Positions 28,107 to 33,444 of a stretch of DNA of 54,088 nt are shown one piece after another. Origin of the DNA: an uncultured Clostridia bacterium (GTDB taxonomy: Bacteria > Bacillota > Clostridia > Oscillospirales > Acutalibacteraceae); assembly GCA_944384995.1 (NCBI GenBank), contig CALWVN010000012.1, positions 1-54,088 of the forward strand, read 5' to 3'. Position numbers and translations under genes: made by a program. The first letter of the stretch is position 1; every line of letters begins with the position of its first letter. Under the pieces are notes generated by a model. The model saw only the letters and a program-made list of their open reading frames with translations, was not told where the DNA came from and did no database searches.

Positions 28107-28775
28107 ATGAACCGTATTTCACCGTCTATTTTATCTGCTGACTACGGCCACCTTGCCGCCGCGCTCGAGCTTTTGACCGCATCGGGCGCGGATATGGTGC
28201 ACATCGACGTTATGGATGGGCATTTCGTGCCGAATATCACGATCGGGGCGCCGGTGGTGCGCTGCCTGCGCAAGTGTACTGCGCTCTCCTTTGATGTGCA
28301 TCTGATGATCGACGAACCGCTGCGCTACGTCGCGGATTTCGCCCAAGCGGGCGCGGACCGCATCACCTTCCATACCGAGGCAAAAAGCGATGTCGGGGAA
28401 ACGCTCGACGCGATCCTTGCGGCGGGGAAAGAGGCGGGGCTTGCCGTCAAGCCGGGCACGGACATATCGGAGGTCTACCCGTATCTCTCGAGGCTCGCCA
28501 TGGTGCTCGTGATGACCGTCGAGCCGGGCTTCGGCGGGCAGAGCTTCCGGGCGGACATGCTCCCGAAGATCCGCGCGCTGCGCAAGGAATGCGTACGGCG
28601 CGGGCTTCCCGAACTGGACATCCAGGTGGACGGCGGCATTTCGGCGCAGACTATCGGCGACGTGGCCGCAGCGGGCGCAAACGTGTTCGTTTCGGGCAGC
28701 GCGCTGTTCTCAAGCAAGGATATGGCGGCGGAGATCCGCCGGTTCAAGACGCTGGCGACTGCGGCGCAGATGTAA
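28107..28775 (+). CDS. rpe: ribulose-phosphate 3-epimerase
   Basis: The 222-residue TIM-barrel enzyme interconverts ribulose-5-phosphate and xylulose-5-phosphate in the pentose phosphate pathway. Signature blocks are ISPSILSADYGHL, HIDVMDGHFVPN, DVHLMIDEP, MTVEPGFGGQSF and QVDGGI. An SD (AAAGGAG) lies 8 bp before the ATG. Its last 32 bp overlap the 3' end of the leftward MecA-like gene. Confidence 0.96.
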   Translation: MNRISPSILSADYGHLAAALELLTASGADMVHIDVMDGHFVPNITIGAPVVRCLRKCTALSFDVHLMIDEPLRYVADFAQAGADRITFHTEAKSDVGETLDAILAAGKEAGLAVKPGTDISEVYPYLSRLAMVLVMTVEPGFGGQSFRADMLPKIRALRKECVRRGLPELDIQVDGGISAQTIGDVAAAGANVFVSGSALFSSKDMAAEIRRFKTLATAAQM

Positions 28776-29298
28776 ACTCTATGGCGCGTGCATGCTCGGC
28801 GAGATGCTGCGCGACCCTGCCGCGCGCGGGGCAGACTGTTCCGTATTCCGAAAGCAGCTGTGCGCCGCGCTCGGCGCTTTGTGCGTCGTCAAACGAAAAC
28901 AGTACTGCAAAGCCTGTTTGCGTACGGTAAAGCGTCCGTTCTACGCCGTAAAGCGGCGGGCGGGAAAGCAACTTCAGCAGATCTAAAAACGCGTCGGCAT
29001 CCTGTGTGCAAAACAGCAGCGTGCGCCCCGTATGCAGCACGCGCAGCCGCATTTTGCGCGCAGTAAACAGAAAAATGCAGCCGCCGCCGGGCTCGGGCAG
29101 CACGTCGATGCGCAGCCTTCTCCTTGCGGGAACGGCAAAATCGAGCGTGCGCCGCGCGCAATGCAGGATCTCGCGCACAACGCGCGCGGTCTGTGCGTTG
29201 TCGGCGGCAAGATCTTCAAAGGAAAGACGATAAGCGGAAAGCTCCTCGCGCGTGAGCGCGGCGAGCAGTACTGCGGCGGATGTTTTATGCAGTTCCAT
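28744..29298 (-). CDS. MecA-like adaptor protein
   Basis: The 184-residue protein resembles MecA/YpbH adaptors, which bring substrates to ClpC-ClpP. The N-terminal pattern ALTREELSAYRLSFEDLAADNAQTARVV, then VPARRRLRIDVLPEPGGGCIFLFT, parallels the MecA N-domain. The C-terminal part has the YRTQTGFAVLFSFDD strand pattern. The usual long acidic linker is short here. AGGGGG precedes ATG 29298. The gene diverges from the rnfD-like gene and its 3' end overlaps rpe. The client protein is unknown. Confidence 0.68.
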   Translation of the reverse strand: MELHKTSAAVLLAALTREELSAYRLSFEDLAADNAQTARVVREILHCARRTLDFAVPARRRLRIDVLPEPGGGCIFLFTARKMRLRVLHTGRTLLFCTQDADAFLDLLKLLSRPPLYGVERTLYRTQTGFAVLFSFDDAQSAERGAQLLSEYGTVCPARGRVAQHLAEHARAIEFTSAPQSPAS

Positions 29299-29447
29299 TC
29301 GGTAAAGCCCCCTTTATGCGCAGCATACCGCCCGTGGGCGTTGCCGCTTTTTGCGAAACCGCGAATGAAACAGCGGTCGCCTACTTCATCCTATTGCAAA
29401 GCCCCGGGTTTTGCAATGCAAAATTTATGGAAAACGAGGTGGTTTTT

Positions 29448-30521
29448 TTGCGTCAGGAAAGTCAGACCCCGACAGACGGCCGTCTGTTTACCCCTGAAAT
29501 GAAGGCGGAACTGCGCACGACGCAAAAGCAGATGCTCGACCGCCTGGTCATGTTGTTCGCGCCGACGGTCATGGCGTGGTATTATTATGGCTCGCGCGCG
29601 CTGTGGCTCGTGTGCATCGCGGTGCTGACCGCCGTGGTGTGCGAAGGGCTCGGCATGAAGATCCTGGGCCAGCATCCGACGCTGCGTGACCTTTCGGCAG
29701 TGGTCACAGGCGTGACCGTGGCGCTTTGTCTGCCCGCCTCTTCGCCCGCGTGGCTCATTGTGCTCGCCGTCTCGTTTGCCATCCTCGCGGCGAAGCTGCC
29801 GTTCGGCACGGCGCGCAGTCTCCTGTTTTCCCCTGCGGCGGCGGGGCTTGCCTTTGTGACGGTCTGCCTGCCGCAGTATGTGTTCGCCTACCCCGCGCTG
29901 CCTGCGGCTGGGGAGAGCGCACCGGTATTCGGCAGCTCCGCGTTTACGGAAGGCGTATCGTTGACGCAAATGCTGCAAAACCGCGCGTCTGTGGGCGGCG
30001 AGCTTGCCAATTATTTGGATATACTGCTTGGCGCGCATGCGGGTGCTATGGGCACGGGCTGCATGGTCGCGCTGTTCGGCGCGCTGCTCTATTTGCTGCT
30101 GCGCCGCCCGAAGCAGTTTACGGCCGCCGTCGGATTTTTAGTTGCGGCGGCAATTTTCGCACTGCTGTTCCCGCGCACCACGGCCGGACGCGGACAGTCC
30201 GTTGCCATGGAGCTTTGCGGCGGGATGCTGGTGTTCGGGGCGCTGTTCCTTTTGTCGGAGGAGCCGTTTTTGCCGAAAACCTTTTACGGCAGGCTTGCTT
30301 ACGGCGTCTGCGGCGGTGTGTTTTGCATGCTGTTCCGCAGATTTGGCGCGTTCGAGGAGGGCGTGATGTTTGCTGTGCTGCTCACGCAGGCGCTTTCGGG
30401 CGTGTTTGACCGCCTGCCCGACGCAGGGCTTACGCGGCGCTTGCAGGCGCACCGGCGGCGCAAAGACCGCTCCAGGACGGAAGCGGCACTGCCGGAAGAG
30501 GGAGGTGCTGCGGATGCATGA
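29448..30521 (+). CDS. rnfD: RnfD/NqrB-like membrane protein lacking a recognisable FMN site
   Basis: This 357-residue polytopic protein aligns with RnfD: SAVVTGVTVALCLPASSPAWLIVL matches the SAVVTGLLLAL..LP segment, and LFSPAAAGLAF matches the FNPALxGRxF segment. RnfD normally carries FMN linked to Thr in a D-G-x-(S/T)-x-A-T-P-L motif. Here the equivalent stretch reads TEGVSLTQML, one or more residues short and without A-T-P. The GETS segment is replaced by MGTGC. TTG 29448 was chosen as start because GAGGTGG (29436-29442) lies 5 bp upstream; ATG 29427 has no SD. It is the first gene of a D-E-A trio. Confidence 0.8.
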   Translation: MRQESQTPTDGRLFTPEMKAELRTTQKQMLDRLVMLFAPTVMAWYYYGSRALWLVCIAVLTAVVCEGLGMKILGQHPTLRDLSAVVTGVTVALCLPASSPAWLIVLAVSFAILAAKLPFGTARSLLFSPAAAGLAFVTVCLPQYVFAYPALPAAGESAPVFGSSAFTEGVSLTQMLQNRASVGGELANYLDILLGAHAGAMGTGCMVALFGALLYLLLRRPKQFTAAVGFLVAAAIFALLFPRTTAGRGQSVAMELCGGMLVFGALFLLSEEPFLPKTFYGRLAYGVCGGVFCMLFRRFGAFEEGVMFAVLLTQALSGVFDRLPDAGLTRRLQAHRRRKDRSRTEAALPEEGGAADA

Positions 30522-31656
30522 CCGTGGGAAAGAACTGCTGAAAGGGATCCGTGACAGCGCCGTCGTCAAAAACCCCGTGCTGTTTGAGGCGATCGGGCTG
30601 GCGCCTGTCGCGGCTATGGCGGTATCCTTAAAATCCGCGATCATTTTAGCGGTCGTTTCGTGCGCGGAGCTGGTCGTCATCGAGCTGCTCGCGTGCCTCG
30701 CCTTAAAACGCATCAAAAGCTATTTCCGTGTCGCCGTATATGCGGTGCTCGGGGTGCTGATCAATATCCCGATCTTCATGCTCTTTGAGCGTTTCGCGCC
30801 CAACGAGACGCAAAACGCCGGCATCTTCCTGCCGTTGCTCGCCGTCAATTCCTTAGTGGCGCTGCACTGCGAACGGTTCGCGGTGAAAAATCCGTTCGGC
30901 AAAACGTTTGTAGACGCGGTCTCCGCGAGTGCGGGCTATGCGCTGGTGGTGCTGCTGGTCGGCGTGGTGCGCGAGATTTTGGGCAGCGGGACGATCTATT
31001 CCGTCGATTTAAAGCTTCCCGTACAGCTGCCGGGCTTTTTGTACCCGTTCGGCGGGCTTCTGCTGCTGGGTCTCCTTGCGGCGGGCGTCAAGGCGCTGAT
31101 TTTGCGCCGTCACCCCGACGCACACCCCGAACGGGCGTTTGACATGCGCGAGATTTCGCAGTCGCACGTCGGGAAGCTGCGCAATTTGCTGGATGCGGAT
31201 TTCAACCCGTATGACGAGGAAGAGACGGCAGCGCCCGCGCCCCGCACACGGACGGAAAAGCAGCGCAAAAAGCAGGACGCGCCCGCATCAGAAGCGTCTG
31301 CACAAGCGCCTCAGGCGGAACCGTCGGAATCGCCCGAACGCCGGACGAAAAAGGCGGAAAAGAAAATGAAAAAGCGGGCAAAGCCCGAAAAAGCGCCGCG
31401 CGGCAAGGCGGCAAAAGCGGCAAAGACACCGTCGGACGTGCCGAAAGCCGCTGCGGCGGCCGAACAGCCGCAGCGGACGCGCCGTGCCGAACCCGAGGAC
31501 TATCTCTCGGAATTCGACGAGATTTTGTCGGAGCTTGACGCATACCGCGAAAAATACGGGATGCCCGATGGCGCGGACAAGGCAGACGGCGCACAAATAC
31601 CCGCATCCGGCGGCGCGGATGACGCGGAGGATCCGAAAGGCGGGGAAAAGCCATGA
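30514..31656 (+). CDS. rnfE: RnfE/NqrD-like membrane protein, no cluster cysteines, long charged C-terminal extension
   Basis: Residues 1-205 are RnfE-like with six membrane helices (KNPVLFEAIGLAP, GIFLPLLAVNSLVALHCERFA, VVREILGSGT). In RnfE/NqrD two Cys (GLCP and TNC) bind a [2Fe-2S] cluster with RnfA. Here they read GLAP (Ala30) and VNS (Ser113). About 175 extra residues follow, rich in Ala, Lys, Glu and Pro, ending in an acidic helix (SEFDEILSELDAY); RnfE proteins normally end near 200-230. The extension would be cytoplasmic. GGAGGTG (30501-30507) is 6 bp before ATG 30514, which overlaps rnfD by 8 bp. The 3' end overlaps rnfA by 4 bp. Confidence 0.8.
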   Translation: MHDRGKELLKGIRDSAVVKNPVLFEAIGLAPVAAMAVSLKSAIILAVVSCAELVVIELLACLALKRIKSYFRVAVYAVLGVLINIPIFMLFERFAPNETQNAGIFLPLLAVNSLVALHCERFAVKNPFGKTFVDAVSASAGYALVVLLVGVVREILGSGTIYSVDLKLPVQLPGFLYPFGGLLLLGLLAAGVKALILRRHPDAHPERAFDMREISQSHVGKLRNLLDADFNPYDEEETAAPAPRTRTEKQRKKQDAPASEASAQAPQAEPSESPERRTKKAEKKMKKRAKPEKAPRGKAAKAAKTPSDVPKAAAAAEQPQRTRRAEPEDYLSEFDEILSELDAYREKYGMPDGADKADGAQIPASGGADDAEDPKGGEKP

Positions 31657-32246
31657 GTATTTTAGGCAGCCTGTTTTCGGCGGCGCTGTATGCCTGCCTG
31701 TTTCAAAACCTGATCTTTTCGGGCGGTTACGGGGCGGATGAAGCGATCCGTATGGCGGCAAAGCCCAAGCAGCTTTTCCCGCTGACCATCTTCATCGTGT
31801 ATTTTTCGACGCTCGGGTCGCTCATCTGTGTGCTGTTGGAGCAAAGCGCCGCCGTGCGCGCGCTGAATATATTTTGGCACGCGCTCCTTTTCGTCGGCGT
31901 GCTCGTCGCGCTGTATCTTCTTACACTGTTTGTCGTGCTGCTTTTCTTCCGCGCAAAGCCGCGCACCGTGCGGCGGCTCGGCGTTGCGGCATTCAACACG
32001 CTGGTGCTTGCCGTTCCGTTCATCAACTATCGTGCGGCGTTCGGCGTGTTCGAGGCGATCGGCGCAGGTATCGGCGCGGGGCTCGCCTTTGTCATCGCCG
32101 TACTGCTTATCAACTTCGGTCTGCGCGCGCTTGACAAAAACGAGCAGATCCCGAAAAGCTTTAAGGGCACGCCTGCCGTGTTTATTTATGTATCCATTCT
32201 CGCGCTCGCGTTCACGGGGCTTACGGGCACGGGCCTCGGCGTTTGA
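31653..32246 (+). CDS. rnfA: RnfA/NqrE-like membrane protein lacking cluster cysteines
   Basis: The 197-residue, six-helix protein has RnfA length and hydrophobic pattern, with PKSFKGTPAVFIYVSILALAFTGLTG matching the family's PxxFxGxPxxFIxxGLxALAFxGF ending. RnfA normally has Cys in GLCP and TNC. The corresponding stretches here are GGYGADEA and FNTLVLAVPF. The only two Cys (15 and 59) fall elsewhere. It overlaps the rnfE-like gene by 4 bp (ATGA) and is followed 13 bp later by a putative glycoside hydrolase gene. No rnfB, rnfC or rnfG is next to it. Confidence 0.76.
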   Translation: MSILGSLFSAALYACLFQNLIFSGGYGADEAIRMAAKPKQLFPLTIFIVYFSTLGSLICVLLEQSAAVRALNIFWHALLFVGVLVALYLLTLFVVLLFFRAKPRTVRRLGVAAFNTLVLAVPFINYRAAFGVFEAIGAGIGAGLAFVIAVLLINFGLRALDKNEQIPKSFKGTPAVFIYVSILALAFTGLTGTGLGV

Positions 32247-32259
32247 AAGGGAAAGAGCC

Positions 32260-33444
32260 ATGTTCAAAAACCGGGATGTAAAGCCTCGGAAAAAAAGCTA
32301 TTATCCGTTTTCCAAAAACTATCCGAGCCGGCGCACGGGTACGACCTACGCCATCGGGGAAAGCCGTGCGCGCCGCGAAAAGGAACGGCACGCCAACGTC
32401 GCATACGCCGTGGCGCTCGTTGTGGTGTTCGTGGTGGTCTTTGCGGTGACGTTTGTCGCCATCTCGCTGTATGAGCGCCCCATCGACGACGGCAGCGACA
32501 CGGCGGTCAGCTTCGACGGCGATTACCGCGCGCAGTATATCACCGCCGACGAGCTCGGCGGCGGCATTGCGTTTGACCTGTTCTTCGGGCAGCTTTCGGA
32601 AAGCGGTGCGAATGCGGTGCTGCTGGATTACAAAAATGGATCCGGTCTGCTTTGCACCGATACGGGTGCAGATACATCCGGCGAGATCGGCGCCGCAGCG
32701 GCAAATACGGCGGCTGCGGACACGGTGGCGCGGCTCAAAGCGCAGGGCTACGGGATCATTGCACGCATCCATTGCTTTAAAGACCCCCTTGCGGCTTCGC
32801 AGCTTCCCGAAGCGGCAGTGACCGAGGCGGACGGTACGACCGTTTGGCTGGATGACAGCGCCCGCAACGGCGGGCAGCCGTGGCTCAACCCTTATTCCGA
32901 GACGGCACAGCTTTATTTGCTGGGCGTGATCAGGAGTGCAGTCGATTTCGGCGCGGACGTGGTGCTGCTCGACAGCGTGCAGTTCCCGACGGGCGACCTT
33001 GCCGCGCGCGCAACGTATCGCGGGGAAGCGGAAAGCACCTACAGCCGAAACGCGATCCTGCAAAGCTTCATCGAGCGTGCCAAAGCACAGGTGGGCGAGG
33101 TGCCTTTGGCGGTCGCCATGCCGCTTTCGGCGGCGCTGTTCGGCGACACGGCGGCGTACGGCGGCGGGATCTTCGACTCAGCGGCGGATATGGCGGCGGT
33201 CACGCTCACGCGCGCGGGGCTTCAAGACGGCGCCATGCTCGGGAGCACTGTCTATTCCGCCGACATGGACGAGGCTTCTTTCCTTTCCGCTGCCACGGCG
33301 GCGCTGGAAGCGCGGCTTTCGGAAAACTACCGCACGGAAGAGTACCTGCCCGTGCTCGAGGACGGGACGGATGTATCAAACCTCGAAAATGCGGGTATAC
33401 ATAAATATATATACCTGCGCACGGCAGACACCGATACGCAGTAG
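32260..33444 (+). CDS. membrane-anchored putative glycoside hydrolase (DUF4015-like)
   Basis: The 394-residue protein has a basic cytoplasmic N-terminus, one membrane helix (about residues 45-70: VAYAVALVVVFVVVFAV), then an extracytoplasmic TIM-barrel-like domain. Segments such as SGANAVLLDYKNGSG, YGIIARIHCFKDP, WLNPYSETAQLYLLGVIRSAVDFGADVVLLDSVQFP and VPLAVAMPLSA match the order of DUF4015 putative glycosyl hydrolases. The family's usual FDEIQFDYVRFP motif reads ADVVLLDSVQFP here, so activity is uncertain. AAAGGGAAAGAG precedes ATG 32260. The 13-bp gap to the rnfA-like gene makes it part of that operon. Confidence 0.72.
   Translation: MFKNRDVKPRKKSYYPFSKNYPSRRTGTTYAIGESRARREKERHANVAYAVALVVVFVVVFAVTFVAISLYERPIDDGSDTAVSFDGDYRAQYITADELGGGIAFDLFFGQLSESGANAVLLDYKNGSGLLCTDTGADTSGEIGAAAANTAAADTVARLKAQGYGIIARIHCFKDPLAASQLPEAAVTEADGTTVWLDDSARNGGQPWLNPYSETAQLYLLGVIRSAVDFGADVVLLDSVQFPTGDLAARATYRGEAESTYSRNAILQSFIERAKAQVGEVPLAVAMPLSAALFGDTAAYGGGIFDSAADMAAVTLTRAGLQDGAMLGSTVYSADMDEASFLSAATAALEARLSENYRTEEYLPVLEDGTDVSNLENAGIHKYIYLRTADTDTQ

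Follow-up and report, generated by a model that had tools for sequence, protein, structure and literature searches.

The window, by which we mean the whole 54,088-nucleotide stretch of DNA analyzed here (contig C12 of a 1.89-Mb genome of an uncultured Clostridia bacterium, 86% complete), carries three adjacent genes whose products resemble RnfD, RnfE, and RnfA, membrane subunits of the Rnf complex. The question raised by this D-E-A trio is whether such a core can outlive its own redox chemistry. An initial annotation made from the sequence alone had read the trio as a non-redox descendant, perhaps a transporter or an ion-coupled membrane scaffold. The alignments described below provide strong sequence evidence for what would be a non-redox core in the window's branch of the family. 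The reading that we favor, with somewhat more confidence than doubt, is that the trio of this branch is a neofunctionalized paralogue of the Rnf membrane core, probably non-redox, with the RnfD-like protein as the hub of a coupler or pore at the envelope. The literature searched, most subscription papers being outside our reach, yielded no description of such a core that is free of redox centers altogether. If it is indeed non-redox, the window trio would be, to our knowledge, the first such member of the Rnf/Nqr superfamily.

Redox, flavin, and ion-site residues of the trio

The claim that the window holds three overlapping genes of RnfD, RnfE, and RnfA type proved sound, as all three are open reading frames (ORFs) that overlap one another within positions 29427-32246:

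29427..30521, plus strand: RnfD-like protein of 364 amino acids (ATG at 29427; PF03116, 201.8 bits; alignments to 7zc6_D)
30514..31656, plus strand: RnfE-like protein of 380 amino acids (ATG at 30514; PF02508, 101.3 bits; alignments to 7zc6_E, 9eri_E, and 7xk3_D)
31653..32246, plus strand: RnfA-like protein of 197 amino acids (PF02508, 49.1 bits; profile alignment to 7zc6_A, 9eri_A, and 8ahx_A)

The RnfD-like gene may start at ATG 29427 or at TTG 29448, and its frame is open back to 29280. All three proteins pass the Pfam cut-offs (PF03116 for D; PF02508 for E and A) and miss those of NCBIfam (141 versus 207 bits for rnfD, 72 versus 213 for rnfE, and 42 versus 229 for rnfA). Homology to the Rnf membrane subunits is given by the Pfam scores together with fold matches for D and A. 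The AlphaFold2 models have a mean predicted local distance difference test (pLDDT) value of 86 for the RnfD-like and 75 for the RnfA-like protein. In Foldseek searches, the three best RnfD chains matched the D model with a template modeling score (TM-score) of 0.71 to 0.73 by query length, 8rbq_D with 0.64, and NqrB with 0.59 to 0.68, and the A model matched RnfA/NqrE with 0.65 to 0.73 for the first seven chains (0.73 to 7zc6_A).

Site columns were read from an alignment of 56 non-canonical and 23 canonical D proteins, plus the E and A proteins of the same loci (L084 has A only). One odd canonical copy, L090, is counted in the 23 canonical site rows and left out of the 22-copy comparison of the trio's own conserved residues. 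The closest relatives make up 45 trio genomes, namely, that of the window, 37 of the same genus, and 7 of the same family. RnfD sites are numbered after Clostridium tetanomorphum RnfD (7zc6_D), with their roles taken from PMC9588780. According to that source, RnfD Thr153 binds flavin mononucleotide (FMN), Arg130 and Glu185 adjoin the flavin, Asp248 and Asn124 mark a proposed Na+/riboflavin site, and Asn90 and Glu185 mark a site on the outer side (PMC9588780).

In the window, none of the four cysteines of the [2Fe-2S] cluster is present. The RnfE-like protein has Ala30 (30601-30603) and Ser113 (30850-30852) in their place, and the RnfA-like protein has Asp29 (31737-31739) and Thr116 (31998-32000), its sole cysteines being residues 15 and 59. 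In the RnfD-like protein, the position of the FMN-binding Thr153 is taken by Ser178 (codon 29958-29960), within TEGVSLTQML, and those of N90, N124, R130, E185, and D248 are taken by C101, S135, L141, T210, and E278, respectively. The alignments thereby bear out the residues named by the initial annotation in all three proteins.

The same losses recur among the relatives, where any one trio genome keeps at most one of the four cluster cysteines. The first RnfE cysteine column reads C in 25, A in 19, and F in 1 of the 45 trio genomes, so that it is lost in 20, versus C in 23/23 canonical copies; the second reads S in 42, A in 2, and P in 1, versus C in 22/23. The two RnfA columns read S in 34, D in 9, and T in 2 (versus C in 22/23) and T in 43 and S in 2 (versus C in 23/23). 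At the Thr153 column of RnfD, serine is found in 40 trio genomes, alanine in 4, and glycine in 1, versus threonine in 21 and serine in 2 of the canonical 23. N90, N124, R130, and E185 are retained in 0/45 trio genomes, versus 20, 23, 23, and 23 of the 23 canonical copies, and D248 is retained in 9/45 (lost in 36), versus 23/23. NqrE-E95 is required for pumping and pairs with NqrD-R71 (PMC10643135). By motif-region match, without superposition, a glutamate in the NqrE-E95 region of RnfA is found in 0/45 trio genomes versus 22/23 canonical copies, and an arginine in the NqrD-R71 region is retained in all 45. Since these losses are common to the 45 closest trio genomes while nearly all of the 23 canonical copies retain the residues, they are not due to chance, which supports the reading of the trio as a non-redox descendant.

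Cysteines displaced in E and A were also considered and ruled out, because pairwise and profile alignments to chains of 7zc6, 9eri, 7xk3, and 8ahx fix the ligand columns; no shifted cysteine was revealed by profile or fold comparison. Taken alone, the change in the D motif says least among the losses, since 40/45 trio genomes have serine at the FMN position and so do 2/23 canonical RnfD proteins. It is also the least certain column. For L088 and L204, an alignment error of a few residues is possible, with a Thr-Pro close by, and we therefore make no claim on the D motif of these two loci.

The genome also holds a canonical rnf cluster, as the initial annotation had proposed to look for. It lies on contig C5 in the order apbE, rnfC, D, G, E, A, B, with the expected motifs. 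The genome's only match to each of RnfC_N, FMN_bind (the NqrC/RnfG type), and ApbE lies in this cluster, where RnfB was read as an ORF. Canonical B, C, and G serving the trio is an arrangement that finds no support, the sole RnfC_N and FMN_bind matches lying in a complete canonical operon. The stated absence of RnfB, RnfC, and RnfG from the locus was likewise upheld: searching the window with the B, C, and G proteins of this genome revealed no similar ORF of at least 60 amino acids (E up to 1e-4). NqrA, NqrC, and NqrF were not noticed among the ORFs beside the trio, no search having been aimed at NqrA or NqrF.

Selection, own residues, and distribution of the family

We compared the ratio of nonsynonymous to synonymous substitution rates (dN/dS) of D, E, and A in five pairs. 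The values ranged from 0.04 to 0.21 except for one of 0.41, which belongs to E of L040-L041 and is inflated, as the frames used there reach upstream of the likely start; the neighboring rpe gene gave 0.12 in the same two window pairs. These ratios indicate purifying selection on the trio. That it is a functionless, decaying duplicate is therefore barely credible, even though the trio evolves faster than canonical rnf and parts of it go undetected in some branches. Against decay stand dN/dS values well below 1, conserved residues of its own, a stable gene order, and a strong match to the RnfA-like query in 37/38 same-genus relatives (the exception, G016, is 81% complete). In G029 and G032, a TAA lies at the end of the protein and frames of 192 and 191 amino acids remain, and in G014, the gene is cut by the contig end.

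Residues that belong to the trio itself, conserved in 44 to 45 of the 45 trio genomes and in 0/22 canonical copies, are Q18, E30, R33, and Y88 of A (the invariant Glu30 has codon 31740-31742), Cys119 of E, and P125 and S258 of D. F248-P249-R250 of D is conserved in 44 to 45 of 45 as well and also occurs in 6, 3, and 4 of 22 canonical copies, respectively. Beyond what the initial annotation had noted, the trio has acquired cysteines found in none of the 23 canonical copies: E Cys119 (30868-30870), invariant in 45/45; A Cys59 (31827-31829), conserved in 44/45; and D Cys147, conserved in 43/45. These three might form a metal site, or D might hold a flavin non-covalently, making the trio an electron carrier with an unusual cofactor, and Nqr/Rnf-like complexes without the RnfD threonine are still thought to carry electrons (PMC10979944). 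We consider this improbable, as the three cysteines sit on three subunits, no electron donor or acceptor subunit is encoded in the window's operon, and the flavin-pocket residues are gone.

A degenerate RnfD was detected in 56/98 genomes, that of the window included, by our reading of the PF03116 score table, i.e., in 38/39 members of the genus, 13/21 other members of the family, and 5/38 other members of the order. In a maximum-likelihood tree of 79 D proteins, the 56 non-canonical ones split from the 23 canonical ones with a branch support of 98/92; the order of the deep rows is unsure, because seven of them have very long branches. The joint cysteine and threonine losses co-occur in the same gene context, and rpe lies upstream of D in 52/56 loci. 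In the window, the upstream genes are as follows:

28107..28775, plus strand: rpe, ribulose-phosphate 3-epimerase, a conserved upstream neighbor outside the complex (TIGR01163 over cut-off)
28744..29298, minus strand: MecA-like gene, between rpe and D (PF05389, 34.2 bits)

The MecA-like gene, on the strand opposite to rpe and D, is present at many relatives' loci. In L065 (5418-6188; genome G056), a gene for a CAP-family protein (PF00188, 83.7 bits) is placed between D and E.

A search of 299 genomes of the phylum with an RnfA-like profile at E 1e-10, a threshold that strongly diverged copies would escape, gave two matches only in G000, G077, G147, and G200. Of these, G077 was read, and G147 and G200 were not; both of its copies read as canonical, one of them odd. 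This odd copy, L090, belongs to a second six-gene rnf set with glycine at the positions of the second RnfE and the first RnfA cysteine. In a search of 291 genomes of the class with PF03116, G536, G576, G594, G611, and G629 carry the rpe-linked type; the follow-up left out G645, G660, and most second copies in other families, and the type may be spread more widely. Eight further loci were fetched, five of which (L221-L225) are of the same rpe-linked type.

The probable one-helix partner and the possible role of the trio

Two further features of the operon bear on what the trio may do:

32260..33444, plus strand: one-transmembrane-helix protein of 394 amino acids, likely partner (PF13200, 83.6 bits; DUF4015)
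31501..31536, plus strand: YLSEFDEILSEL, a motif of the RnfE-like protein within its long, charged C-terminal tail (alignment)

The partner gene starts 13 bases past A. Its product has a basic N terminus with YYPFSKNYP from 32299, a membrane helix recognized by eye, and a glycosyl-hydrolase-like DUF4015 domain, the single DUF4015 match in the genome, which is matched by structure 4s1a_A (DUF4015 is treated in PMC12700454). By regular expression, a YYxFSKxYP-like motif and the hydrophobic stretch that follows it occur at 43/56 loci, i.e., in 41/45 trio genomes plus L200 and L203. As for the other four trio loci, L044 has a variant by eye, L207 is at a contig edge, and L063 and L068 are without the motif. 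The core of the tail motif of the RnfE-like protein was matched, also by regular expression, in 39/45 trio genomes, all 38 of the genus included.

In L065, L066, L200, and L203, the partner keeps its N terminus and helix in 98 to 155 amino acids, with no DUF4015 match in Pfam. DUF4015 hydrolase activity was accordingly rejected as a general rule for the partner; because these short partners retain the N terminus and helix, the sequences point to this part as the one that goes with the complex. A protein of LytR-CpsA-Psr type was considered as a general partner and set aside, as matches over the Pfam threshold lie next to the trio only in L066 (12796-13662) and L068 (8336-9214), with 41 and 37 bits. 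In L068, it replaces the partner. Other such matches are weak (24.6 bits in L053 and 18.2 bits in the canonical locus L094). RnfG consists of one helix and an extracellular domain (PMC9588780), and since the partner is likewise built, it may, by analogy, occupy RnfG's place.

We propose, tentatively and with slightly more doubt than confidence, a machine that would reuse the moving parts of Rnf without electron transfer, the A/E cluster site now being mostly polar (Ser/Asp29, Thr116, and Ser113). In the reading favored above, the RnfD fold and the inverted RnfA/RnfE pair would retain their mechanics and lose their chemistry. The Nqr counterpart of the RnfA/RnfE pair moves between two access states. 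The trio would act as a conformational coupler or a small pore, with D as its pore or hub; the partner helix would substitute for the single helix of RnfG and tie the core to the extracellular hydrolase-like domain, perhaps one for a wall polymer, and the long RnfE-like tail would recruit a partner in the cytosol. The likely hub of the core is the RnfD-like protein, because E, A, the RnfC-like protein, and the partner are each missing somewhere and D never is; as D served to locate the deep loci, this holds partly by construction. In G046 (95% complete), where PF02508 gave no match at E 0.01, a single degenerate D is present; D therefore persists there without Rnf E/A.

A coupler or pore at the envelope is our leading guess, with a plain transporter next, because D is constant, the ion-site residues are lost, the partner faces the envelope, and the tail of E is cytosolic. 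That next guess would make the RnfD-like protein a solute channel or transporter of the urea/ammonium type with E and A as accessories. It is consistent with the presence of D without detected E and A in L200-L203 and L205, with the nearest solved folds beyond RnfD/NqrB, which are urea and Rh/ammonium channels, and with the close resemblance of NqrB to urea and ammonium transporters (PMC10643135). However, the likeness to urea transporters is weak (TM-score of about 0.4, E from 5e-3) and NqrB shows the same trait, no substrate-pathway gene was seen beside the trio in the window, and the DUF4015 domain of the partner suggests the envelope rather than uptake, so that we regard a channel as unlikely. 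The transporter or ion-coupled scaffold of the initial annotation stands as a suggestion; ion coupling in the Rnf sense is unsupported in the window's branch, because most of the proposed Na+ site has been replaced there too.

Several observations weigh against a non-redox coupler or pore. In principle, a serine in place of the FMN threonine could itself be flavinylated, as suggested by its occurrence in 2/23 canonical RnfD proteins, and Ser/Thr flavinylation sites are reported for other ApbE substrates (PMC10979944); the trio may also hold a non-covalent flavin. Canonical rnf, in the one pair compared, has dN/dS of 0.01 to 0.05, and the trio values are higher. The contact between partner and trio is suggested by gene order and co-occurrence only, and the trios of L063 and L068 are without the partner motif. 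The deeper branches, few and diverged, with site columns less certain there, are also less uniform than the trio genomes. The 11 deeper D proteins retain D248 in 9 cases, N124 in 4, E185 in 1, and T153 and R130 in none. D248 and N124 are both retained in 5/5 of L221-L225, where L221 and L223 have threonine at the T153 position and L221, L222, and L225 retain the second RnfA cysteine, the other three cluster cysteines being lost in all five. L201, L202, and L205 have C and D without detected E/A or partner motif at the locus. Moreover, because an RnfC-like [4Fe-4S] protein is encoded in part of the family, that part may still move or sense electrons; its gene precedes D in 8/56 loci and also in L222-L224. 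The joint Cys/Thr losses that the initial annotation proposed to look for are shared by the 45 closest genomes and incomplete at distant loci, in some of which Thr, Asp248, Asn124, or a single RnfA cysteine survives. Six deeper E/A pairs retain no cluster cysteine. As read from the alignments, none of the non-canonical E/A pairs aligned has an intact cluster site, and the flavin and ion sites were lost later and not everywhere. The less diverged rpe-linked D proteins of L088, L204, and L221-L225, which retain Asp248 and Asn124, some with a threonine near the FMN site, are possible intermediates of loss.

The RnfC-like proteins raise a further alternative, in which they sense redox state or iron in the deep branches and D-E-A acts as a transmembrane relay of the signal, with only the relay surviving in the window's branch. 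In five of them (L080, L201, L204, L206, and L222), [4Fe-4S] Fer4-type matches are over the cut-off, and Complex1_51K is reduced or gone (56 bits in L204, 30 bits and under the cut-off in L222, or no match, versus 165 bits in the canonical protein); their genes lie upstream of D. The RnfC-like protein is missing from all 45 closest trio loci, the window included. Searched with the canonical protein, these deeper loci gave no RnfG-like ORF, and the only matches for RnfB, in L055 and L080, were weak, ferredoxin-like, and outside the operon. A sensor of this kind therefore has little probability. The RnfC-like proteins of L201 and L202 have a very long tail (894 and 784 amino acids). In L200 and L203, D is present and neither E nor A was detected. 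In another family of the class, L219 (6904-10750; G443) and L220 (7315-11104; G606) hold a partial Rnf directly after a sigma-factor-like gene, with RnfC-like and RnfD-like proteins followed by a protein of 444 to 450 amino acids; no PF02508 match was found in G443 or G606.

If a non-redox coupler or pore is the correct reading, the core of an energy-converting pump can lose its chemistry and yet persist for another job, throughout one genus of gut Clostridia and among its neighbors, with relatives showing several stages of loss. The family would then be a natural test of the mechanical versus the redox parts of Rnf, bearing on electron-ion coupling in Rnf and NQR. The trio genes are also prone to being labeled rnf, so that energy metabolism predicted from genomes could be overstated.

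Comparison with known systems

The trio is like the Rnf complex in that its proteins are homologous by sequence, D and A also by predicted fold, the order is D-E-A, and a canonical paralogue lies in the same genome. It differs in that the window trio is without the cluster ligands and the FMN threonine, has changed flavin and ion-site residues, and has no B, C, or G at its locus. The likeness to urea/ammonium channels is a distant one of fold, seen in the predicted RnfD-like model after RnfD and NqrB, and transport by the trio is conjectural. Nqr/Rnf-like two-gene systems resemble the trio in that their RnfD-like part is also without the flavinylation threonine (PMC10979944). Unlike the trio, they retain a flavinylated RnfG-like protein and an NAD (nicotinamide adenine dinucleotide)-binding domain fused to the NqrB/RnfD domain. 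Neither is present at the window locus, which has no FMN_bind match and whose RnfD-like protein has PF03116 as its sole Pfam domain, with no fused NAD-binding domain. Na+-NQR, with its homologous NqrB, NqrD, and NqrE, likewise arose by rnf duplication followed by a new function (PMC4014512 and PMC12174285), but it still has the [2Fe-2S] cluster and FMN and pumps Na+ (PMC10643135).

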